This document shows, one piece after another, positions 3,638 to 14,806 of a stretch of 44,769 nucleotides of DNA. Below the pieces are notes generated by a model that was not told where the DNA came from, made no database searches, and saw only the letters and a program-made list of their open reading frames with translations. The position numbers were made by a program, and so were the translations under genes. Position 1 is the stretch's first letter. Each line of letters starts with the position of its first letter. This DNA comes from Deltaproteobacteria bacterium (GTDB taxonomy: Bacteria; Myxococcota_A; Polyangia; JAAYKL01): positions 1-44,769 of the forward strand of contig JAFGQN010000007.1 in the NCBI GenBank assembly GCA_016935665.1, read 5' to 3'.

Positions 3638-5419
3638 ATGCGATTTCCAGCTGAACAGACAAGGTCGACAAAAAAATACAGTTTATTATGGTGGTTCCAT
3701 CTGAAGCGAATCCTGGCGGCGTCTTTTTTACTGCTGCATATTTCCTGTGGTACGCGAACCGGAATTAATCACGGGTGCGACAGTGATGATGAATGTCAAT
3801 TTGGATACGTTTGCCTTGAAGGTGAATGTGTGTCGTACGATGAACTGGAAGATACGTGGACGGAGGCAGATTCGAATACCTCTACCGGGACGGATTCAAC
3901 GACGGGAACCGAGTTCGAGACCGATACAACCTCGGATACGGATTCGGGAACGAACACTGGTTCGGATTTCAGCACTGATACCGGTAGTGAGACCGATTCG
4001 CCAACGGATTCTGGCAGCGAGACAGAAACCAATACCCATACGGACAGCGATACCGGAATGGACACGGAGTCTGTCACAGATTCAATTGTTGACTCCGCAA
4101 CAGATACGAATATCGACACTTTTACAGGTTCGGACAGCGAAACGACTACGGATTTCGATTCCGTAACAGGCACGGAAAGCGGAACGGAATCCGAGACTGA
4201 CTCGGATAACATGGATACGGGAACCGATCCGGATACGGGCACCGGGGCGGATACCACAGACACATCGGATACAGGGACGGATACCGACACCGGACTGGAT
4301 ACGGCTACCATTAATGCTACGGACACCGGTACTGCAGATACGGATTCCATTACGGACACGGGGGTGGATACCGGCGTGGACACGGGTGTGGATACGGGTG
4401 TGGACACAGGTGTGGATACTGAAACAATTGCGGATTCTGATTCTGATTCTGAATCCGAATCCGATTCGATTGGGGGGTGCGGCGGTATAAATGACGATAT
4501 GGATGGTGATGGATATACCGAGTTGGATGGCGACTGTGACGATTGTGATTCTGAAATTGGTCCCATGGCCCTCGAGGTGCTCGTGAACGGATACGATGAT
4601 GATTGCGATGGCAGCATTGACGAACCTGTTTTCCCCTGCGATTGTGACAGTGGGGCCGACTGGGTGGCGGGAATTGATTTATGCGATGAACGGTTTTATT
4701 TCAGTCCCTCAAAGTGGCATGCGACTTTGCAGGACCCGTCTTTGCTGGACGCGCTGTCTGTGGATCCGCATTATGGCGCTGCCGGCAATGATTTGGCGGT
4801 TTTGGCGGGGTGCAGATATACCATAATTACATCGGGAGCGATTCATACCGTTGGCCATCAGCAGGGGACCGATTGGGGGGCTTTGAGCGCTGATCCCATG
4901 CCCGTATATAATGGGTCGACTCCTTTTGTTGCGGACAATGCGTTTGCGTTTGACACGACACAATTGCGCGTGACGCTGTTTGTTCCTGCCAATGTGAGGG
5001 GCTTTTCGTTTGATTTCATTTATATGAGTACAGAATATCCGGAGTACGTGGGGGATGCATATAATGACGCCTTTTATGCCATCATTCAATCCGGCTCCAC
5101 CAATAACTGGGCCACCACCAATATCGCCTTCGACGATACGCCGGCACACAACGAGATAAGTGTGAATTCCGCCTTTTTCGAGGATCCGCCGGAAACCAGT
5201 ATTGAGGGAACCGGTTTTGATTGGGATGCAGATGCGCAGATACAGCTGGGTGGGGCAACCGGATGGTATCGCACTACGTGGCCGGTGACGCCAAACAGCG
5301 TGTTTTATTTGAAGTTTTCCATTCACGACGAGGCAGATGGCCTGTATGATTCCCTGGTGATTATCGATAATTTCAGGTGGTTGTTTACAACACCGGAAGG
5401 CACAACCTCTCAATTATAA
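3638..5419 (+). CDS. Surface lipoprotein: Thr/Asp/Ser-rich linker, MopE-like motif, choice-of-anchor L-type domain
   Basis: 593 aa. A basic N-terminus and hydrophobic stretch end in a lipobox-like LHISC, with the candidate lipid-modified Cys at residue 37; the pre-Cys region is long. Then come a short Cys-containing EGF-like patch (NHGCDSDDECQFGYVCLEGEC) and about 200 residues of low-complexity Thr/Asp/Ser/Gly sequence built on TDTG/SDSE units. A MopE-type putative metal-binding segment follows (about 279-335; DMDGDGYTELDGDCDD and NGYDDDCDGSIDE). The C-terminal ~250 residues resemble the choice-of-anchor L domains of myxobacterial secreted proteins. I infer an outer-surface protein held away from the membrane by the acidic linker. 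The start is supported by TGGGAG six bases upstream. It is likely a substrate of surface export, but that is not shown. Confidence 0.75.
   Translation: MRFPAEQTRSTKKYSLLWWFHLKRILAASFLLLHISCGTRTGINHGCDSDDECQFGYVCLEGECVSYDELEDTWTEADSNTSTGTDSTTGTEFETDTTSDTDSGTNTGSDFSTDTGSETDSPTDSGSETETNTHTDSDTGMDTESVTDSIVDSATDTNIDTFTGSDSETTTDFDSVTGTESGTESETDSDNMDTGTDPDTGTGADTTDTSDTGTDTDTGLDTATINATDTGTADTDSITDTGVDTGVDTGVDTGVDTGVDTETIADSDSDSESESDSIGGCGGINDDMDGDGYTELDGDCDDCDSEIGPMALEVLVNGYDDDCDGSIDEPVFPCDCDSGADWVAGIDLCDERFYFSPSKWHATLQDPSLLDALSVDPHYGAAGNDLAVLAGCRYTIITSGAIHTVGHQQGTDWGALSADPMPVYNGSTPFVADNAFAFDTTQLRVTLFVPANVRGFSFDFIYMSTEYPEYVGDAYNDAFYAIIQSGSTNNWATTNIAFDDTPAHNEISVNSAFFEDPPETSIEGTGFDWDADAQIQLGGATGWYRTTWPVTPNSVFYLKFSIHDEADGLYDSLVIIDNFRWLFTTPEGTTSQL
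4354..4420 (+). repeat. In-frame 12-nt tandem repeat encoding (DTGV)n
   Basis: About five consecutive near-identical 12-base units (consensus GTGGAYACSGGY) encode repeated Asp-Thr-Gly-Val within the linker of the surface lipoprotein. Units differ only at synonymous third positions (GAC/GAT, GGC/GGT). Gain or loss of a unit would keep the frame and change only linker length. Confidence 0.8.
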
Positions 5420-5422
5420 TTT

Positions 5423-6196
5423 ATGCGCTGGTTCAATTTTCTAAAAAAGCGAACGATTCAACAAGAGCGGGATTTTGCGCTGTACGACACGCATAGTCAT
5501 ATCCTGTGGGGGGTTGATGATGGCGCGTCGCAGATTGAGGATTCCGTTGCTTTTTTAAAAGCGTATGCCCGTTTGGGGTATCAGGGCGTGGTGGCGACGC
5601 CTCATTTGAACCATTGGATGTTTGAGACATTCCCTTTTGATGTCTATGAGGCGCGGTTGGCATCCATCTCATCAGATATGGAGAAAGAAGGCGTGACCGT
5701 TAAAATTGGTGGCGAAGTAATGTGTCGAGACGACTTCGTTTCCGGGTTTGACCGGGGGCTGTTTCTGGGGGTAGGTGACACCTGGCTGGTGGAGTTTGAG
5801 AATCGACCAGGATTGTTTACTCCTGCACTTGAGCAAATGGTGTTTAATTTTCGCATGGCAAATCGAACGCTGATCCTGGCCCACCCGGAGCGCTATGGCG
5901 ATGTTCAGAAAAATCCGAGCATTTTGTTGTCATTGAAAGAGCGCGGCATGCTAATGCAAATCAATCTGGGGTCTCTGGTTGGAAAAAATGGTCATCGCGC
6001 GCGACAGCTGGCGTGGATGTTTGTGGACAATGGCATGGCTGATTTGGCCGCCACAGACGTCCACCGGTTGTCGGATTTCAGTATCATTGAGTCCGCTTTG
6101 GAACGTCTTGCATATCACAATCCCGAAAAATTCAGATCACTGGTCAACGAGAATCCCGGACATGTATTCAACGGACAAAGCTACCGAATCGCATGA
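5423..6196 (+). CDS. PHP-type tyrosine-protein phosphatase, CpsB/YwqE family
   Basis: 257 aa, cytosolic. The N-terminal YDTHSHILWGVDDGA (residues 21-35) carries the His24-x-His26 metal pair. Further PHP ligands appear in VATPHLN, LAHPERY and AATDVHR. This is the signature of the CpsB/CapC/YwqE family of Mn-dependent phosphatases, which dephosphorylate bacterial tyrosine kinases controlling capsule or exopolysaccharide synthesis. No tyrosine kinase or polysaccharide genes lie nearby, so the partner must be elsewhere. The ATG follows the preceding stop by three bases without a clear Shine-Dalgarno, suggesting translational coupling to the lipoprotein gene. Length is normal for the family (about 250 aa). 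Confidence 0.85.
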   Translation: MRWFNFLKKRTIQQERDFALYDTHSHILWGVDDGASQIEDSVAFLKAYARLGYQGVVATPHLNHWMFETFPFDVYEARLASISSDMEKEGVTVKIGGEVMCRDDFVSGFDRGLFLGVGDTWLVEFENRPGLFTPALEQMVFNFRMANRTLILAHPERYGDVQKNPSILLSLKERGMLMQINLGSLVGKNGHRARQLAWMFVDNGMADLAATDVHRLSDFSIIESALERLAYHNPEKFRSLVNENPGHVFNGQSYRIA

Positions 6197-6260: not shown

Positions 6261-7085
6261 ATGACTGACAAACAAAAAAGAAAAACAGAAGCACTGGCTG
6301 CCTTCGCTGAGTTAATCGACATTATTGACACATTGCGATCTCCAGGCGGATGCCCCTGGGACAGAAAACAAACGTCAAAAACGTTGAAACCGTACTTTAT
6401 CGAGGAAACCTACGAGGCATTGGACGCAATTGATAACAATGATTTTTCCCATTTAAGAGAGGAACTTGGGGATGTGCTGTTACAGATTATGCTGCATTCC
6501 CAAATCGCATTTGAATCTGAGGAATTTCATATTGGACACGTCATTTCGGGATTGGCCAGAAAAATGATTCAGCGCCATCCCCATGTTTTTGCAGATGTTC
6601 AGGTGGATGGCGAGGCGGATGTACTGAAAAACTGGGAGCAGATTAAGGCTGAAGAGAAAAAGGACAAAGGTATTCTCGATGGCGTCCCCAGGGCGTTGCC
6701 TGGATTATTGCGTGCGTATCGCATGGGGCAGAAAGTCGGACGGGTTGGATTTGACTGGCCCAGCATAGAGGGCGTGCGTGAAAAGGTCCACGAGGAACTG
6801 GCGGAATTGCATGACGCATTGGAAGCGCAGGATGCCGATTCAATTTTTCAAGAGATGGGGGATGTGCTTTTTGCGATGGCTCAATGGGCAAGACACATCG
6901 GTGTGGACCCCGAGGATTCGTTGCGTCAGTGCTGCAATCGTTTCGGTAATCGTTTCGCACATGTGGAAAATTCAGTAATGGTGAACAACCGCTCGATTCG
7001 CGAGTACTCACTGGATGAGCTCGAGCAGCTTTGGAAGCAGGCCAAGGAAAATGAACAACTCAGAAAATTCGCGTCCGAGCAGTGA
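6261..7085 (+). CDS. mazG: Nucleoside triphosphate pyrophosphohydrolase MazG
   Basis: 274 aa. It hydrolyses (d)NTPs to NMP and pyrophosphate (house-cleaning). Two MazG repeats are visible. The first has LRSPGGCPWDRKQT, EETYEALDAI and EELGDVLLQI, giving the EExxE...ExxD Mg site. The second has EELAELHDAL and EMGDVLFAMAQWARH. FDWPSIEGVREKVHEEL links them, as in E. coli MazG. Start choice is uncertain: ATG 6261 gives a family-like N-terminus but has no Shine-Dalgarno. ATG 6216, 13 bases after AAGAGGA (6196-6202), would add 15 residues. ATG 6162 would overlap cpsB. Its 3' end overlaps the acyl carrier gene by 35 bases. Confidence 0.9.
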   Translation: MTDKQKRKTEALAAFAELIDIIDTLRSPGGCPWDRKQTSKTLKPYFIEETYEALDAIDNNDFSHLREELGDVLLQIMLHSQIAFESEEFHIGHVISGLARKMIQRHPHVFADVQVDGEADVLKNWEQIKAEEKKDKGILDGVPRALPGLLRAYRMGQKVGRVGFDWPSIEGVREKVHEELAELHDALEAQDADSIFQEMGDVLFAMAQWARHIGVDPEDSLRQCCNRFGNRFAHVENSVMVNNRSIREYSLDELEQLWKQAKENEQLRKFASEQ

Positions 7086-7338
7086 TGCTATCGAAGGCAG
7101 AATCCGGGAAATTATATCGTCCGTAACCGGGAAGCAACTCGCGGATGACGCAGACGGGTTGCAGAATCTGGGGCTCAGTTCTCTGGATAAGCTTGAAATC
7201 CTGACTCTGCTGGAGTCCGTTTTTGATGTGACCCTGACAGAGGAAGTGGCCCAGCAGTTTTCTTCGGTTTCAAGTGTCGCGCGTATCGTTTTGCGAATGA
7301 GAAATGACCGACAGGAGCATTGGCGTTTATCATTGTAA
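7051..7338 (+). CDS. Acyl carrier protein-like (phosphopantetheine) protein
   Basis: 95 aa. The central motif LGLSSLDKLEILTLLE matches the helix-2 start of acyl carrier proteins. Ser44 would be the 4'-phosphopantetheine site. The usual Asp of the DSL triad is Ser43. Helices before (IEGRIREIISSVTG) and after (VSSVARIVLRM) fit the four-helix fold. I chose ATG 7051, preceded by AAGGA at 7043-7047; it lies inside the end of mazG, so translation is likely coupled. No fatty-acid or polyketide genes adjoin it; an acyl-CoA ligase lies 5.6 kb downstream. It is probably a specialised carrier rather than the housekeeping AcpP, which normally keeps DSL. Confidence 0.7.
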   Translation: MNNSENSRPSSDAIEGRIREIISSVTGKQLADDADGLQNLGLSSLDKLEILTLLESVFDVTLTEEVAQQFSSVSSVARIVLRMRNDRQEHWRLSL

Positions 7339-7469
7339 CCACGCATTCAATCGCCGTGGCAAACGCCCTACTGAACGATGGGGCGTCAAACGCATTTCCG
7401 ATGTTTATCCTGCGACATTGCGTTTTTCTGTTATTTTCTGTTATACCCATAATTAATATAAATGAGAAG

Positions 7470-7497
7470 TTGACTTTCATTACATACTTTGGATACT
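7470..7497 (+). promoter_or_regulatory. Candidate sigma70 promoter for the envelope cluster
   Basis: TTGACT (7470-7475) and GATACT (7492-7497) are separated by 16 bases in the 242-base gap before the small lipoprotein gene. Transcription would start near 7504, leaving a leader of about 75 bases. Called by eye. Confidence 0.35.
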
Positions 7498-7580
7498 GTT
7501 TCGAAATAGTACCGGGCAATAATAGCATCCAGGGCATTATTGGTCGTATCCAATCATTTCACCTGTTTGGAGGATATTCT

Positions 7581-8012
7581 GTGTATCGTTTTTTTTCAGC
7601 TTTTACAGCGATACTCCTTCTGGGCATATCGATGGGCCTGGAAGGTTGTGCTCCTGTTGAATATTCTGTCGTCATCGTTGGCGCCTCCGATGCGATAGCG
7701 AAGGCAGAGGCGTCCGGCGCTTCCTGCACCGAGCAACAGCTGGCAGAGTTAAGCCCGGCGACGCGATTTAATGCTCTGGAGTCAGGCACCGAAGTCGCAT
7801 CCACCGAAGTGATGTCGGGCACATCTTTCGCCGGGCCGATTTGTGGCGCCCCCTACGAGTATTATCTTGCTGTGGAATACCTTAAAAAAGCGCGTGAAGA
7901 AGTGGGGTATTCTGACTACGAAGCGGCACTGGAGTACGCCAGAGAAGCAAGGAAGTATGCGCAGTTGGCCAGAGAAATAACGGTGAATTCGAGCGGGGGG
8001 AGCGGAAGATGA
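7581..8012 (+). CDS. Small lipoprotein, DUF4398-like
   Basis: 143 aa from GTG 7581, chosen because GGAGG (7569-7573) lies seven bases upstream and it gives a clean lipoprotein signal (YRFFSAFTAILLLGISM, then LEGC, Cys near residue 20). An upstream ATG at 7320 would put the signal in mid-protein. The mature part has a helical C-terminus (EYYLAVEYLKKAREEVGYSD and EAALEYAREARKYAQLA) that looks like DUF4398, a helical domain found in small envelope lipoproteins often encoded beside OmpA. The gene overlaps the OmpA gene by four bases (ATGA), so the two are probably co-translated and act together at the outer membrane or peptidoglycan. No enzymatic motif is seen. Confidence 0.7.
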   Translation: MYRFFSAFTAILLLGISMGLEGCAPVEYSVVIVGASDAIAKAEASGASCTEQQLAELSPATRFNALESGTEVASTEVMSGTSFAGPICGAPYEYYLAVEYLKKAREEVGYSDYEAALEYAREARKYAQLAREITVNSSGGSGR

Positions 8013-9106
8013 CGATGAGATTGTCTGCCCTGCTTTTTTTATTGTCAGGTTTTGTTGTAATGACAGGATGTGCATCCACTCGCATGATGCGCGCTGGAAT
8101 AGCGGATGGCCAGTTGCGGGTTCAACAGATTGAAGCCAATGGTGGCAGGAAGTGCGCCCCACGGGAACTGGCAGTGGCCAGAGCGCAAATACAGTTTGCT
8201 CTGCTCGAAATTTCGCAGGGGATGGGAAGTAGGGCCAGGGAGCACTACGACATCGCTATGCGGAATCTGGTGCTGGCTGAAAAGAAAACAGTGCCGGGAG
8301 AGTGCGGCGACGCACCTGTAAACACGACGCCGGACTGTGTGGACAGGGACAGGGATTTTATCTGCGAGGAAAATGATCAATGCCCGCGCCAGGCTGAAGA
8401 TTACGATGGTATCGAAGATTCTGATGGCTGTCCGGAGGATCAGGATACGGACATGGATGGTATTCTTGATTCAATCGATCAATGCATAACTGATAAAGAA
8501 GACTTAGACGGATTTGAAGATGAGGATGGGTGTCCGGATCTCGACAACGATTTGGATTCTGTTCCGGATGCGACCGATGAGTGTCCCATCGACGCTGAAG
8601 ATCCCGATTCATACGAGGATTCGGATGGTTGTCCGGATAATGATAACGATGCCGACACTATTTTTGACCTTGATGACGAGTGCCCGAACACTGCAGGGGT
8701 AGCAGAAGAGAAGGGCTGCCCCAAAAAATATGAGGGTGTTAAAATTACGAAGACCCGGATAGAAATCAATCAGAAGATATTTTTCGCATACAATAAAGCA
8801 AAGATAATGAATAAGTCTTACCCAATACTTGCAATGGTCGCGAAAGTGCTTCGGGAAAATCCAGATATTTCCCTGAGCATTGAGGGGCATACAGACAGTA
8901 AGGGGAAAGATGCGTATAACAAGAAGCTGAGCACTAAAAGAGCAAAAGCTGTTGTGGAACATCTTGTCAGTAACGGAGGCGTGGCACGTAATCGGCTGCG
9001 GTACGTCGGCTGGGGCGAGGAAAAACCGATTGACAGCAATTTGACAGAAGAAGGCCAGGCCGCGAACAGACGTGTGGAGTTTGTAAGAACTGATTCCGCG
9101 CATTGA
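8009..9106 (+). CDS. OmpA-family lipoprotein with thrombospondin type-3 repeats
   Basis: 365 aa. The lipoprotein signal ends at VMTGC (Cys21). A DUF4398-like helical segment (about 30-90, RELAVARAQIQFALLEIS) resembles the product of the preceding gene. About residues 108-235 form Asp/Cys-rich TSP type-3 repeats, roughly four DxDxDGxxDxxDxC units, which bind calcium in this family. The C-terminal OmpA domain (about 245-360) keeps the peptidoglycan-binding SIEGHTDSKG and LSTKRAKAV motifs, with the Asp and Arg that contact diaminopimelate. I infer an outer-membrane lipoprotein that reaches the cell wall through a Ca-stiffened stalk. ATG 8009 overlaps the upstream stop; ATG 8015 is an alternative. 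Confidence 0.88.
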   Translation: MTMRLSALLFLLSGFVVMTGCASTRMMRAGIADGQLRVQQIEANGGRKCAPRELAVARAQIQFALLEISQGMGSRAREHYDIAMRNLVLAEKKTVPGECGDAPVNTTPDCVDRDRDFICEENDQCPRQAEDYDGIEDSDGCPEDQDTDMDGILDSIDQCITDKEDLDGFEDEDGCPDLDNDLDSVPDATDECPIDAEDPDSYEDSDGCPDNDNDADTIFDLDDECPNTAGVAEEKGCPKKYEGVKITKTRIEINQKIFFAYNKAKIMNKSYPILAMVAKVLRENPDISLSIEGHTDSKGKDAYNKKLSTKRAKAVVEHLVSNGGVARNRLRYVGWGEEKPIDSNLTEEGQAANRRVEFVRTDSAH

Positions 9107-9115
9107 GATACAGGA

Positions 9116-10882
9116 ATGATTTGGAGTATGACGAGACCCCTCTTGAAACCACCCTTGACTTTTAAAATTTTCTTATACGCTGCAACTTTCTGTTTGGGCA
9201 CAATGTTCTCTACATTGGTGTCTGCGCAGTCGAATCCGGATGTCATTCAGAAGAACAGCGATGCAATGGACGCATACGCCAATCTGGAAATTGAAACTGC
9301 ATTGAGACTACTAAAGGAAGCAGAGCAGATTTGTATTGATAACAATATTTCCGGTCCCCAGATGGCGCGAACCCTGGTTAATCGAGGGGTTGTGGAAATG
9401 GGAGGCAATGGCGACAACGCAGTGGCGATGGAATATTTCAAAAAGGCGTTGTGTCACGATTCCGCTGTGATGTTGGATCCTCTGAATTCAACCCCTGAAA
9501 TGGCGGATTTGTTCAGTGGTGCTCACGCTCAGGTAAAATCTCAAGGCTGTGACGGTATAGGGCCCGCTTCCGAAGCTGGCGCAGATTCCTCAATGGATGA
9601 TCTGCTTGGCACACCGCCAGTGGGAACGACTCCCGTTGCGCCCGTTCCGGAACCTCCGACATCTCAACCGGAACGACCTGTCGCGTCCGGTGTGAGTCAG
9701 CCGGTTGAAGTTGTAAACGACGTGCTGCGTCACACGTCGGTCACTGAGCAAAAAAGAATGGTTCCCATCCCGTTTTATGTGGTCACCAATTCTGATGTTG
9801 ATGTTGCCAGTGTCGTGACATTTTACAGGACAGTCGGGGAACGAATTTTTCAGCAGTTGCCTTTGGTTCAAAAGGGGGACGGATGGTCCGCGTATATTGA
9901 ATGTGATGTTCTCACCACGCTCGATCCCTCTGCCATTGAATACTATATCGCGGTGACGGACGAATCAGGGCAGTTGCTGGCGACAGCAGGGTCGGAGGCT
10001 CAGCCGTTTACCATTCAAATCGGTCATTCCATCTCTTCTGAACCACCGTCTGTCCCCGGTGAGGCGCCTCTTCCTGCCTGTCAGGAAGACTGCCCACCGT
10101 GGAATCCGGATTGCAACGCCAGAAACTGTGGTAAATACGCCGAACTGTGTTCCGACGATGAACCCTGTTGTTCGGGGATGGCCTGCGTGGATGGTGTGTG
10201 TGAAGAGGCGGGAAGCCAACCTAAAGGCAAACCAGGAGCGATGACAGCCAGGGTGCGCCTATTCGTAAATGGCGGTGTTGGTCTCGGATTGGTGCCCAAG
10301 GAAGAATACACCGCCGATGATTTTCCCAATAAACGAAGTGTGGCAGCGATTGGTTCCGATAATCCGGGAATTGGTTTTTCCAAGTTGCATTTTAGAGTGG
10401 GAGCGATGATTCCGTTGACAGAGAAACTTGAAGTTGGCGCCAATTTCAGGGGGGACTTGCCGCTTTTCGCTGAGTTCTACGATGCGTTGGTACCATCTAT
10501 CATTGCCAACGTCGCCTATCGCATCGCTGGCAGCAATGCCGAAAGCGGATTTCAAATGTATGGGGTCGCTGGTTTTGGATGGGTCCAGATAATGCATCGA
10601 ATTCCATTCAAGGATTGCAAAAGCTGGATAGAACTTAAACCGGGCGAATCCGCTGAGGATGTGGTCTGTAAATATGACAATTGGAAAGATATTTCAAATG
10701 AACAGGTGGAAACTACCGGGTTTCGACGGGCCGGATATTTGGGCGTTGAGTTGGGTTTTGACATGAATTACTGGTTCACCAGGAATGTTGGCCTGAACGT
10801 TGGAACAATTTTCGATATTACTTTCCCAAAAAATTTCACAATAAATCTTGACCTCCAAATGGGACTTGCTCTCCGTTTCTGA
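9116..10882 (+). CDS. Secreted/outer-membrane protein: TPR-like, CPPWxxDC Cys-rich segment, predicted beta-barrel (paralogue 1)
   Basis: 588 aa; I recognise no named family. An N-terminal signal peptide ends near VSAQ. Residues 45-150 are helical and TPR-like (DAYANLEIETALRLLKEAEQ and AVAMEYFKKALCHD). A linker with SSMDDLLG leads to a beta-rich domain (about 215-305) ending in AQPFTIQI. A Cys-rich segment follows (CQEDCPPWNPDC, then CCSGMACVDGVCEE). The C-terminal ~200 residues alternate hydrophobic and polar residues with Gly/Phe ends (final LQMGLALRF), as in outer-membrane beta-barrels. The next gene has the same order of parts, so the two are paralogues. The start may be ATG 9116 or 9128. 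It follows the OmpA gene by nine bases and probably shares its transcript. Confidence 0.65.
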   Translation: MIWSMTRPLLKPPLTFKIFLYAATFCLGTMFSTLVSAQSNPDVIQKNSDAMDAYANLEIETALRLLKEAEQICIDNNISGPQMARTLVNRGVVEMGGNGDNAVAMEYFKKALCHDSAVMLDPLNSTPEMADLFSGAHAQVKSQGCDGIGPASEAGADSSMDDLLGTPPVGTTPVAPVPEPPTSQPERPVASGVSQPVEVVNDVLRHTSVTEQKRMVPIPFYVVTNSDVDVASVVTFYRTVGERIFQQLPLVQKGDGWSAYIECDVLTTLDPSAIEYYIAVTDESGQLLATAGSEAQPFTIQIGHSISSEPPSVPGEAPLPACQEDCPPWNPDCNARNCGKYAELCSDDEPCCSGMACVDGVCEEAGSQPKGKPGAMTARVRLFVNGGVGLGLVPKEEYTADDFPNKRSVAAIGSDNPGIGFSKLHFRVGAMIPLTEKLEVGANFRGDLPLFAEFYDALVPSIIANVAYRIAGSNAESGFQMYGVAGFGWVQIMHRIPFKDCKSWIELKPGESAEDVVCKYDNWKDISNEQVETTGFRRAGYLGVELGFDMNYWFTRNVGLNVGTIFDITFPKNFTINLDLQMGLALRF

Positions 10883-10938
10883 TACGCCCGCCACCTGCCC
10901 AAATTACAGGTACATTGTGCAATTGTGTGATGAAACGC

Positions 10939-10996
10939 TTGACATCTGCACAGAAAAACGTGCAATCTGGGGTGTCGTTTTAATGTGGTTAAAACG
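10939..10996 (+). promoter_or_regulatory. Candidate promoter with adjoining perfect inverted repeat
   Basis: TTGACA (10939-10944) and TGCAAT (10961-10966), 16 bases apart, sit in the 164-base gap between the two paralogues. Just downstream lies a perfect 8-bp inverted repeat (CGTTTTAA, loop TGTGG, TTAAAACG; 10976-10996) that begins about three bases after the expected start site. It has no T-run, so an operator or leader hairpin is likelier than a terminator. Called by eye. Confidence 0.35.
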
Positions 10997-11046
10997 CCGT
11001 CAGTGGTTTTATGGCAGCCTAATTTCGTAAGAATGGAGAGGATATT

Positions 11047-12936
11047 GTGCAAAGCGGGTTTTATTCAAAAATATCTGTGTTTTTCGTAACAGCTACTTTG
11101 GGTGTTTTGATAATGCCTTCCCTTGCTCGTTCTCAAGGGGTAGATGCCGAAGCCATCGCATTGAAAAAGAAAGCGATGGCTGCATATGGCAATTTGGACC
11201 TGGACGGTGCGATGAGTAAATTGGACGAAGCCGCCGCGATGGGCGCCGAGCTGGCTCCGAATACAGTGGCACAGATATATATCGGCTATGGAGTCGTTTT
11301 TGTCGGTGGACACGGCGATAATGCTCGCGGCCAGGATGCATTCACCATCGCTCGTTGCCTGGATGCCAGTGTTTCCATTGACCCACTTTTTTCGTCTCCT
11401 GAGGTGGACATGATTTTCAAAATGGCCCAGGCCAGGGCGAATCAGCAGGTCTGCCCCGGGCTCCTTTCCAATGTTGCATACATGGGTAATTCCGCCACAG
11501 GGTTGCCCTCTGCCGGGCCAACTGGTGGCGAGTCATCAATAGATGACCTGTTGGCCGCACAACAACAGGCGCAGCAGCCGTTGCCACCTGTTCAATCGGG
11601 TATGTTGCCGCCGTGCGGCAATCACAATTCGCCTGCTCAACAGCGAAAATCCACAGAACTGCCCTTAATGATACAAATTGAACCTGCCAAACTGGCAACA
11701 CTGGATAGAATCGTTCTGAAGTATGCGTACGACGGTGGGGGTACCTATTTCGAAATGGACATGACAAAAGGGGACCAGGGGTGGGTCACAGCGATGCTGA
11801 CCTGCGATGAAGGTCAAATCACTGCGTTCGATCCCGGGGAGGTTACCTATTATATTGTAGGATACGATGATTTGGGAGGTCAGGTCTGTGGACAAGGGTC
11901 CCAGGAACAACCATTTACGGTCATCATGGATCCCGGCGCGTCCATTGTAACCGGTCTGGCCGGGATGCCTACTCCTCAAACCTGTTCTGAGTGCCCTCCA
12001 TGGGATCAGGATTGCCATAATGGTGGTGGCTCTGCAGGCAGTCAGACCCCCTGTTTTTCGGATGAGGAATGTCTGCAGGGACAGTGGTGTTCCGATGCAG
12101 GGTTTTGTGAAGGGGACTCCACGGGCGGGGACGGTGACGATGGATTCGGAATGGGAGCTGATTCGCCACAAAAATTTTATATTCAAGTCATGGGTGGAAC
12201 CGGCGTTGGCTATGCCAATACACCGGAAGCCTGGTACATTCGAGCCACTTACAACGGGGGAGTGTACGACCCTGACGAATTTTTTGCCTATATGATCGAC
12301 GATGGAATAAAACGGGGCGGATGGGGAGGGGTACCCATTCGTGCGCATGTGGGTATCGTTTTTAGTTCCAAATTTTCTCTTGAGATTGGCGGGCGTTTGG
12401 ATATTTCTGCAGCCTGGCGAAAACAGACGGATGTACTATATTGTGCATATGCGAATCCAAACGAAAATGGTGCAATTAACGAGAGGGAGCAGGCTATCTG
12501 CGATGCGCCTCGTGCCGATGAGCCATTGGCTTTTGGTGCATGGCGGGATGCGCCGGATCCGAGTGACGAGAATTCTCTGCCCGGTGCAGTGCGGACCACG
12601 ACGCGATCGGGAATGAAGAATGCCTGGCTCGTAAATGCCAGGCTGAAAACACGATTTATAAACAAAGGAGGCAATCAGGTATCTTTCTTTGGTGGTCTCG
12701 GTTATGGCCATTTGTTTTTTGCGCCGGAGGTCAGTGATGTTGATGTGGATGGGAAGAAGGATAAAGTTGTTGCAACACCTGGAATGATTAATATTGAACT
12801 GGGGCTTGGATACGCGCACTATCTGAACAAAAAGTTCGGATTTGTAGTAGAAATGCCAGTGGACATTGTCCTTGGAGAAAATTCATCTTTCGGCCTTGGT
12901 GTCGATTTGATGCTGGGGATCAGTTTCGGAGGTTAA
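11047..12936 (+). CDS. Secreted/outer-membrane protein: TPR-like, CPPWxxDC Cys-rich segment, predicted beta-barrel (paralogue 2)
   Basis: 629 aa from GTG 11047, which follows GGAGAGGA (11035-11042). The signal peptide ends near ARSQG. The domain order matches the preceding gene: TPR-like helices (MAAYGNLDLDGAMSKLDEAA; compare DAYANLEIETALRLLKEAEQ in paralogue 1), a shared GGxGDNA motif, SSIDDLLA, a beta domain ending EQPFTVIM, and a Cys-rich block with CSECPPWDQDC and CFSDEECLQGQWCSDAGFC. The C-terminal barrel-like part (about 375-629) has many alternating strands and ends in LMLGISFGG. I infer an outer-membrane protein with a periplasmic TPR/beta region; the direction of topology is not proven. 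Separate promoter signals suggest it can be expressed independently of paralogue 1. Function unknown. Confidence 0.65.
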   Translation: MQSGFYSKISVFFVTATLGVLIMPSLARSQGVDAEAIALKKKAMAAYGNLDLDGAMSKLDEAAAMGAELAPNTVAQIYIGYGVVFVGGHGDNARGQDAFTIARCLDASVSIDPLFSSPEVDMIFKMAQARANQQVCPGLLSNVAYMGNSATGLPSAGPTGGESSIDDLLAAQQQAQQPLPPVQSGMLPPCGNHNSPAQQRKSTELPLMIQIEPAKLATLDRIVLKYAYDGGGTYFEMDMTKGDQGWVTAMLTCDEGQITAFDPGEVTYYIVGYDDLGGQVCGQGSQEQPFTVIMDPGASIVTGLAGMPTPQTCSECPPWDQDCHNGGGSAGSQTPCFSDEECLQGQWCSDAGFCEGDSTGGDGDDGFGMGADSPQKFYIQVMGGTGVGYANTPEAWYIRATYNGGVYDPDEFFAYMIDDGIKRGGWGGVPIRAHVGIVFSSKFSLEIGGRLDISAAWRKQTDVLYCAYANPNENGAINEREQAICDAPRADEPLAFGAWRDAPDPSDENSLPGAVRTTTRSGMKNAWLVNARLKTRFINKGGNQVSFFGGLGYGHLFFAPEVSDVDVDGKKDKVVATPGMINIELGLGYAHYLNKKFGFVVEMPVDIVLGENSSFGLGVDLMLGISFGG

Positions 12937-12937
12937 T

Positions 12938-14806
12938 ATGCCTTCCCTTTTGACCATTCCGGGTCAGTTTCTCTCACTTGTTGAGCGTTTTCCATCTAAA
13001 TCCGCCCTGATGGAATTTCAGGAAAATAAATGGGTTTCAGAGAGTTTTTGTGAGTGGGAGCAACGTTCCCGCGCTGTGGCTTCCGCACTGATTGCTGATG
13101 ATATATCGGTACAGGACAGTATTTCCGTTTTCTCGTATTCCCGTCGCGAGTGGCTGGAAGCCGATATGGGGATACTCATGTGCGGCGCCCGAACAGCGAC
13201 CATTTATCAGAACATCGCCGGTGAGACTGTTCATCGTATTTTAAAAGATGCAGAGGTAAAAGTGGTGTTCGCCGAAGGGCCTGTTCAGTTGAGAGCGATA
13301 TTTGGGCAGGAGGGCAACGCGCCATTGCCGCCATCTCTGAAACGCATCGTGTACTTTCAGAGTTCCCAGCAACCACCCAGTCGTGCTGGCAAACCAGCAC
13401 CATCAATGCTTACCCTGGCAGAGACCGTGCCCATTGATAAAAAGGCAATGCTTGTTTCTTTTGAAGACTACATAAAAAAGGGGCAGGAACTTTTGGGGCA
13501 AAATCAACCGGAACTGGAATCACGTCTGCGCAATTTATCGGAAGAAGACATTGCCAAAGTGGTTTATACATCTGGCACAACCGGAGTTCCCAAAGGAGCA
13601 ATGCTCACTCACAAGAATTTGACGTCGGTGACGGCACACCTGGAAGAAACAATTCGGCTGAAACCTTCGGATAAGACATTGCTTTTTTTGCCGTTGGCGC
13701 ATGTTTATGCACAATTGGTTTACCATGCACAAATGCGCTATGGATTTACCATTGCGTTCGCCCGAAGTCTGCTCACCGCCGTTGAGGATGCGGAATCGAT
13801 GCATCCCGATTTTTTTGTCTCGGTGCCGCGCCTGTTCGAAAAAATTTATGCCGGCGTGTTGGAACAGGTAGAACAGGGGGGCACACTAAAAAAGAAGATT
13901 TTTAATTGGGCAACCGACGTGGGTGCGAAAGTGAGTCGCCTGATGCAGGCCAATGAATCGCTGCCAATGGGACTTGCGATTCAGGCAAGTTTGGCGCATC
14001 GGCTGGTGTTTTCGAAATTACAGAGTAAACTGGGAGGCAAGGTTCGCATGATGATTTCCGGCGGGGCGCCATTGCAAAAGGAGATTATCGAATTTTTCCA
14101 TGCCGCTGGTCTGCTTATTATCGAGGGGTATGGTATGACGGAAAATGCCTCTCTCAGTCATCACAATCACCTGGATAACTATCGGTTCGGAACAGTGGGA
14201 CTGCCCCTTAAAGAAACGGAAATGCTGATTGCTGATGATGGTGAAATTCTGGTGCGAAGCCCCGGTGTGATGAAGGGATACTTGAATTTGCCAAAGGAAA
14301 CAGCGGAATCGATTGACGCAGGTGGTTGGTTGCACACAGGTGACATTGGCGAAGTGGATAGCGATGGGTTTCTGAAGATTACCGATAGAAAAAAAGATAT
14401 CATTGTGACGTCTGGGGGGAAAAATATCGCGCCGTCCCCAATTGAAGCGCACCTGACACGACTGAAATATGTGTCTCAGGCGTTAGTGTTTGGCAACAGA
14501 AGAAAATTTTTAACAGCGCTGATCACCCTGGATAGAGACGCATCAAAACAGTGGGCCGAGGCGAATGGTTTGGCAGATGCGGATATGGAAGCGCTTTCTC
14601 AAAATCCCCAATTGCGAAAACTGATTGAAGCGGAAATCATCGGTATGAACCGCCACCTTGAGCAGTATGAAACCATTAAACGATTTGCCATCGCCCCCAG
14701 GGAATTCACCATTGCAGATGGAGAGATCACACCCAGCCTAAAGCTTCGTAAAAAGATCATCGAAGAACACTACGGTTATCTCGTTGAAGAATTGTATAAG
14801 AATTAG
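12938..14806 (+). CDS. Long-chain acyl-CoA synthetase (AMP-binding, FadD15-like)
   Basis: 622 aa, cytosolic or membrane-associated. It activates fatty acids via acyl-AMP to acyl-CoA. The AMP-binding P-loop YTSGTTGVPKGAMLTH lies near residues 209-224. Further motifs are the A5-type GYGMTENAS, the A7 TGDIGEVDSDGFLKITDRKK hinge, and SGGKNIAPSPIE leading to the C-terminal catalytic-Lys region. Length and motifs fit the FadD15 / long-chain class rather than ACP-loading enzymes. The ATG is one base after the preceding stop and GGAGG lies just upstream, so it is probably cotranscribed with the barrel-protein gene. A link to lipid supply for the envelope cluster is only contextual. Confidence 0.88.
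   Translation: MPSLLTIPGQFLSLVERFPSKSALMEFQENKWVSESFCEWEQRSRAVASALIADDISVQDSISVFSYSRREWLEADMGILMCGARTATIYQNIAGETVHRILKDAEVKVVFAEGPVQLRAIFGQEGNAPLPPSLKRIVYFQSSQQPPSRAGKPAPSMLTLAETVPIDKKAMLVSFEDYIKKGQELLGQNQPELESRLRNLSEEDIAKVVYTSGTTGVPKGAMLTHKNLTSVTAHLEETIRLKPSDKTLLFLPLAHVYAQLVYHAQMRYGFTIAFARSLLTAVEDAESMHPDFFVSVPRLFEKIYAGVLEQVEQGGTLKKKIFNWATDVGAKVSRLMQANESLPMGLAIQASLAHRLVFSKLQSKLGGKVRMMISGGAPLQKEIIEFFHAAGLLIIEGYGMTENASLSHHNHLDNYRFGTVGLPLKETEMLIADDGEILVRSPGVMKGYLNLPKETAESIDAGGWLHTGDIGEVDSDGFLKITDRKKDIIVTSGGKNIAPSPIEAHLTRLKYVSQALVFGNRRKFLTALITLDRDASKQWAEANGLADADMEALSQNPQLRKLIEAEIIGMNRHLEQYETIKRFAIAPREFTIADGEITPSLKLRKKIIEEHYGYLVEELYKN

Follow-up and report, generated by a model that had tools for sequence, protein, structure and literature searches.

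A lipoprotein pair conserved across Myxococcota, with adjoining barrel genes, as a candidate wall-tethered outer-membrane assembly

Do four adjacent genes for two lipoproteins and two secreted barrel proteins specify one unit of the bacterial envelope, and how far beyond one lineage does such a unit extend? The question is raised by a contig of a Deltaproteobacteria bacterium of the Myxococcota (assembly GCA_016935665.1, contig JAFGQN010000007.1), analysed here as a window of 44,769 nucleotides (nt), in which the genes, called A to D, occupy positions 7581–12936. The original prediction took them for an envelope module marked by the motif CPPWxxDC. We find that the pair A–B is the phylum-wide core, accompanied by C in some lineages only. 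The gene products together are probably an outer-membrane assembly with a tether to the cell wall.

Gene order is kept across the phylum

A reading-frame check of the window found all four frames, as predicted, on the forward strand:

7581–8012, forward strand: gene A, DUF4398 lipoprotein, 143 amino acids (aa), GTG start; helical DUF4398 region at aa 90–132
8009–9106, forward strand: gene B, outer-membrane-type lipoprotein, 365 aa; lipobox VMTGC (Cys21), then DUF4398-like, TSP3 and OmpA regions
9116–10882, forward strand: gene C, secreted protein of 588 aa with tetratricopeptide repeat (TPR), immunoglobulin-like (Ig-like), Cys-rich and barrel parts
11047–12936, forward strand: gene D, paralogue of C with the same domain order, 629 aa, GTG start

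A and B overlap by 4 nt, and gaps of 9 nt and 164 nt separate B from C and C from D. Overlaps and short gaps had suggested one unit, a suggestion with which the single transcriptional direction and the A/B overlap agree. Promoter-like sites were no commoner in a sigma-70 promoter scan of the region than in shuffled sequence, and a terminator scan found no clear internal stop.

Loss of synteny in related genomes had been named beforehand as the observation that would count against the prediction. Across a sample of 235 Myxococcota genomes, in which all tallies of gene order are lower bounds, the order is kept: at least 107 genomes from 27 families have B behind A, the reverse order occurs in none, and A–B–C occurs in at least 55 genomes from 16 families. 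Nearly every full-length B gene listed (96 of 101) adjoins a listed A; four of the other five lie in genomes that also have an A match, its position unlisted, and in the fifth genome A and B are on different contigs. The start–stop tetranucleotide overlap of 4 nt between A and B is present at 32 of 56 loci, in 20 families, and the only labelled same-strand gene families to recur in at least 13 families are A, B and C. This phylum-wide recurrence of gene order rules out a chance neighbourhood.

Among the genomes fetched from the window's own family the order MazG–acyl carrier protein–A–B–C–D–acyl-CoA synthetase–ThrS is found wherever the contig is long enough (the acyl carrier protein gene in 10 fetched contigs), with two exceptions, one genome without D between C and the synthetase gene (G011) and one without the synthetase gene (G007). 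Outside this family the flanks differ and A–B–C are still together. No C was found in the stretch downstream of A–B in families f24, f26, f30 and f40, some of these stretches being short, and C is therefore not obligatory: A–B is the core and C an addition.

Two related lipoproteins, one with a wall-binding domain

Gene A starts with GTG at 7581, where the mechanical open reading frame opens earlier, with TTG; its lipobox (..GLEGC) carries the predicted lipid-bearing Cys23 at codon 7647–7649. The protein matches DUF4398 (PF14346) at 34.2 bits, above the Pfam gathering threshold of 27.9, and 18 of 18 A homologues match the family, which bears out its description as a DUF4398-like lipoprotein. 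B is composed of three further regions:

8102–8287, forward strand: B aa 32–93, DUF4398-like helical segment, homologous to A
8330–8728, forward strand: B approximately aa 108–240, Asp-rich TSP3 repeats, probably a Ca2+ rod, with many invariant Asp and Cys residues
8780–9070, forward strand: B aa 258–354, OmpA C-terminal-type peptidoglycan-binding domain with invariant D296 and R311

Against DUF4398 the first of these scores weakly on its own (17.1 bits against the threshold of 27.9), and 15 of 18 B homologues match the family on their own (best 4.6e-6). Profile–profile comparison with hhalign finds the N-termini of A and B homologous over 87 columns (probability 96%, E 3e-9), so that the predicted picture of B, an OmpA/TSP3 lipoprotein beginning with a helical segment like that of A, holds.

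The TSP3 match is below threshold (20.6 against 25 bits), and membership of this family suggests that the repeats may bind calcium. The OmpA domain scores 81.1 bits against PF00691, above the gathering threshold of 27.2. D296 and R311 are invariant in 18 of 18 homologues and lie 15 residues apart, the same spacing as D271 and R286 of Acinetobacter baumannii OmpA, which are critical for diaminopimelate binding (PMC6572160). Judged by motif and spacing, the two pairs would correspond, and B probably grips peptidoglycan by its OmpA domain. Export and lipidation of the set's proteins we infer.

Predicted small barrels with periplasmic domains

By eye, C and D have signal peptides and no lipobox. 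Their paralogy extends from end to end (E 8e-99), with 26% identity when aligned, and they have the following parts:

9236–9544, forward strand: C aa 41–143, TPR-like helices
9707–10024, forward strand: C aa 198–303, Ig-like beta-sandwich, closest solved fold the Ig-like domain of Porphyromonas gingivalis PPAD
10091–10213, forward strand: C aa 326–366, Cys-rich linker with CPPWNPDC
10241–10879, forward strand: C aa 376–588, predicted small OprF/OmpW/OmpA-type outer-membrane barrel with terminal Phe (beta-signal)
11983–12111, forward strand: D aa 313–355, Cys-rich linker with CPPWDQDC
12163–12933, forward strand: D aa 373–629, predicted small barrel of NspA/OprF/OmpA type

The shared design and both motifs are thus present as first described, except that the Cys-rich block is a linker from the Ig-like domain to the barrel and not part of the barrel.

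Fold matches for the barrels and Ig-like domains rest on predicted (AlphaFold) models. The model of C (mean predicted local distance difference test score, pLDDT, 81) shows TPR-like helices and an Ig-like sandwich, followed by a Cys-rich linker of poor order and, at the C-terminus, a barrel; that of D is weaker (pLDDT 70), with the same layout. In these models the C barrel superposes on OprF (4rlc; Z 15.4, 121 residues, 1.9 Å), with further matches to OmpW, NspA and OmpA, and the Ig-like domain of C on that of PPAD (Z 11.3, 102 residues, 2.6 Å). The modelled D barrel matches NspA (1p4t; Z 16.4, 147 residues, 3.1 Å) and OprF (Z 16.3, 132 residues, 3.3 Å), and OmpW, OprG and AlkL are among the matches of the two modelled barrels. 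C and D are accordingly modelled as ending in 8-stranded membrane barrels of the OprF/NspA/OmpA type. That these regions might instead be soluble folds, the other outcome named beforehand as damaging to the prediction, is rejected on the basis of the models and their fold matches (Z about 15–16). Most C homologues, including all of those in the window's family, end in Phe, an aromatic beta-signal, and D homologues end in FGG, FGF, IGF or FGY, a variant of that signal. Small barrels of the OmpA/OprF class have both ends in the periplasm, which would therefore be the location of the TPR and Ig-like domains of C and D.

No curated family covers C. Pfam OMP_b-brl (PF13505) matches neither C nor D of the window and only one of 21 homologues, at 0.0022; OMP_myx_plus (TIGR04565) gives 13.6 bits for C, missing its cut-off of 60, and matches three of 21 homologues weakly. 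A direct search for solved relatives of C returned nothing useful, as did a profile search for those of A, and with a profile of C the solved structures retrieved were limited to TPR proteins, the Ig-like domain of PPAD and, weakly, Opa.

Probable repeated duplication of the barrel gene

A quick maximum-likelihood tree built from 63 C-type proteins makes C and D of the window's family sisters (support 83). Tandem copies also pair within f21 (support 100), f14 (98) and f45 (100), and those of f11 form one family clade (100). The simplest reading of this tree is that the barrel gene duplicated in place about five times independently, D being one such lineage-specific copy, although gene conversion between tandem copies could mimic independent duplication. 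The C and D subtrees are largely congruent in the window's family, and both copies have therefore been retained since the ancestor of that family.

The distribution of the Cys motif follows the same tree. CPPW occurs only in the window's family and CPPG forms occur in f5, f11, f14, f17, f21 and f22; families beyond these have 0–9 Cys residues and no motif, which is also missing from the other main clade. With the motif confined to one family, CPPWxxDC is ruled out as the hallmark of the module. The conserved synteny of the predicted module stands; the CPPW set of four is one family's version, with A–B as core and D as a local duplicate.

Relation to described proteins

The closest parallel in overall design is the OmpA/OprF family, in which one chain carries an 8-stranded barrel and an OmpA-like wall-binding domain, in some members joined by a TSP3 linker. 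The barrel class is shared with the modelled C and D, and the wall-binding domain, with its conserved Asp and Arg, with B. Unlike in OmpA and OprF, barrel and wall anchor here lie on separate proteins: B is lipid-anchored and has a DUF4398 segment in place of the barrel, whereas C and D bear TPR and Ig-like domains instead.

Pal and the Pal-like OmpA lipoproteins (TIGR02802 and the YfiB, YiaD and PA1041 models) are, like B, outer-membrane lipoproteins with an OmpA-type wall-binding domain, but B adds the DUF4398 and TSP3 regions and the partners A and C, and it misses the NCBIfam equivalog cut-offs of these models (Pal, TIGR02802, 84.1 against 125.35 bits; PA1041 type, NF053612, 120.2 against 250). 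TraB, of Myxococcus outer-membrane exchange, shares the C-terminal TSP3–OmpA half of B and differs in its N-terminal part; B scores 150.2 bits against a cut-off of 700 (NF033763), aligning with profile positions 315–496 of 522 only, and no TraA-like partner was seen. PorE of the type IX secretion system (NF052230) was likewise missed, at 82.4 against 600 bits, and none of the curated families spans the whole of B.

A simpler relative of the pair lies elsewhere in the same genome. On another contig (C210; L123, G000:C210), the minus-strand stretches 7226–8116 and about 8158–8496 together hold a pair in which the gene for a DUF4398 lipoprotein is followed by that for a DUF4398–OmpA lipoprotein. 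Both members carry DUF4398; TSP3 is absent, and no barrel gene was noted next to the pair. The design had been regarded as isolated; its parts are of known kinds, and this two-gene relative makes A–B less so. An SDTDTDSD-rich lipoprotein adjoins the C210 pair (L123, 8896–10986). PA2901–PA2900 of Pseudomonas aeruginosa is presumably a similar pair, PA2900 being, as we take it, an OmpA protein. Searches with DUF4398 gave no match in 14 control genomes, and plasmid searches gave none with A and matched only OmpA domains with the C210 OmpA protein. In Paraliomyxa miuraensis, orf8 and orf9 encode a DUF4398 lipoprotein adjoining an OmpA-family protein, an annotation passed over without remark (PMC10051162). 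The open-licence literature yielded no published function for DUF4398 lipoprotein–OmpA pairs and no description of the A–B–C–D set, in line with the prediction that no described system has these members; a description outside that scope is possible.

Flanking genes

Two genes of acyl-group chemistry flank the envelope genes in the window, the first of them overlooked in the original prediction:

7051–7338, forward strand: acyl carrier protein gene, 95 aa (PP-binding, 35 bits), between MazG and A
12938–14806, forward strand: long-chain acyl-CoA synthetase-like gene (AMP-binding), 1 nt after D

The acyl carrier protein gene overlaps the end of MazG. Only in families f1 and f5 does a synthetase gene come next after D or C. 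We treat the two as neighbours of A and D, respectively, whose membership in the unit is not proven.

Just upstream of MazG, at 5423–6196 (forward strand), is a gene for a CpsB/CapC-type tyrosine phosphatase (113.6 bits), a kind of enzyme characteristic of the control of capsule or exopolysaccharide. At 3638–5419 (forward strand) a lipoprotein-like protein is encoded in which a long Thr/Ser/Asp/Gly repeat region (TDTGVDTGVDTG...) precedes a C-terminal domain; the SDTDTDSD-rich lipoprotein next to the C210 pair is similar to it. Elsewhere, in f3, f12 and f20, the gene immediately before A encodes a membrane protein of about 180–240 aa (L055, 7559–8272, reverse strand; L091, 2902–3456, forward strand), which may be a further component of the unit in some of the class.

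Discussion

We consider it probable that A–B, with C and D where present, make up an assembly that links the outer membrane to the cell wall, a ‘split OmpA’ of a lipoprotein wall anchor and separate barrel subunits. The lipoproteins A and B would be anchored in the outer membrane's inner leaflet and pair through their related DUF4398 helical segments; the TSP3 rod of B would reach across the periplasm, so that its OmpA domain could hold peptidoglycan. The small 8-stranded barrels of C and D would span the outer membrane, with the TPR and Ig-like domains extending inward to dock on A and B. The barrel and wall anchor of OmpA/OprF would thus be divided among subunits, leaving the barrel subunit open to duplication and specialisation.

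This assembly draws computed support from domain content, from the homology between the A and B segments, from gene order and overlaps that are conserved, from the modelled barrels, from conserved residues at the peptidoglycan contact and from parallel duplications. LipL71 of Leptospira likewise pairs DUF4398 with a wall-binding domain, in its case LysM (PMC5406399). As originally predicted, a lipoprotein wall anchor and outer-membrane barrels are supported; A/B pairing, C/D docking, formation of the complex itself and its tethering role we infer. Several observations weigh on the other side. The four families in which no downstream C was found have been described above, and C-like TPR/Ig proteins also occur away from A–B. 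DUF4398 is without known function, and the open-licence literature that names it gives none. In one genome (G214; L142, 4062–8069) C is opposite in orientation to A–B, a local inversion of an otherwise constant order.

The main rival, which we think rather unlikely, holds that A–B functions by itself, as a general wall anchor of two lipoproteins in Myxococcota, while C and D are separate outer-membrane porins or receptors that share its operon in part of the phylum. The families with A–B and no detected downstream C would fit it, as would the C210 pair, for which no neighbouring barrel gene was noted, and the paralogues of C elsewhere, but it accounts less readily for the presence of C behind A–B in at least 55 genomes of 16 families whose neighbours otherwise differ, and for the duplication of the barrel gene in place beside A–B in several lineages.

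The flanking genes raise another reading, a unit for uptake or modification of fatty acids or lipids in which the barrels admit hydrophobic molecules that the acyl carrier protein and acyl-CoA synthetase then handle. It draws on the gene order in the window's family, where 0–6 nt precede the synthetase gene in most members, on the synthetase gene behind C in f5 and on OmpW, OprG and AlkL, for which entry of hydrophobic molecules has been proposed, among the fold matches. However, the synthetase link is seen only in those two families while elsewhere the neighbours of A–B–C differ, ThrS comes next in the same run, so that housekeeping genes are mixed into the neighbourhood, and OmpA, OprF and NspA match the barrels as well as or better than OmpW; we regard this reading as improbable. 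Less probable still is that the genes belong to a myxobacterial surface machine, be it TraAB (outer-membrane exchange), Glt/Nfs (gliding and spore coat) or one of secretion type. TPR proteins and small barrels do occur in such machines, and B reaches 150 bits against the TraB model through its TSP3–OmpA part, but that C-terminal part alone aligns, the cut-offs for TraB, PorE and (for C) OMP_myx_plus are all missed by wide margins (700, 600 and 60 bits), and only A, B and C recurred together.

Returning to the wall-tethered assembly, a broader and more tentative proposal is that it is a phylum-wide ‘split OmpA’ machine, in which a wall-gripping pair of DUF4398 lipoproteins would serve as docking base for exchangeable barrels, which several lineages would have duplicated in place, each independently, so as to build different surface complexes on a single wall anchor. 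If true, DUF4398, a widespread domain, would have an adaptor role in outer-membrane lipoprotein assemblies, and this common domain may gain a testable role as a lipoprotein pairing module. How the outer membrane is fastened to the wall is poorly known in bacteria outside model Proteobacteria, and the A–B(–C) locus, found across much of the sampled Myxococcota, offers a concrete gene set for knock-outs, while the repeated in-place duplication of the barrel gene provides a handle on what this subunit may recognise or carry.

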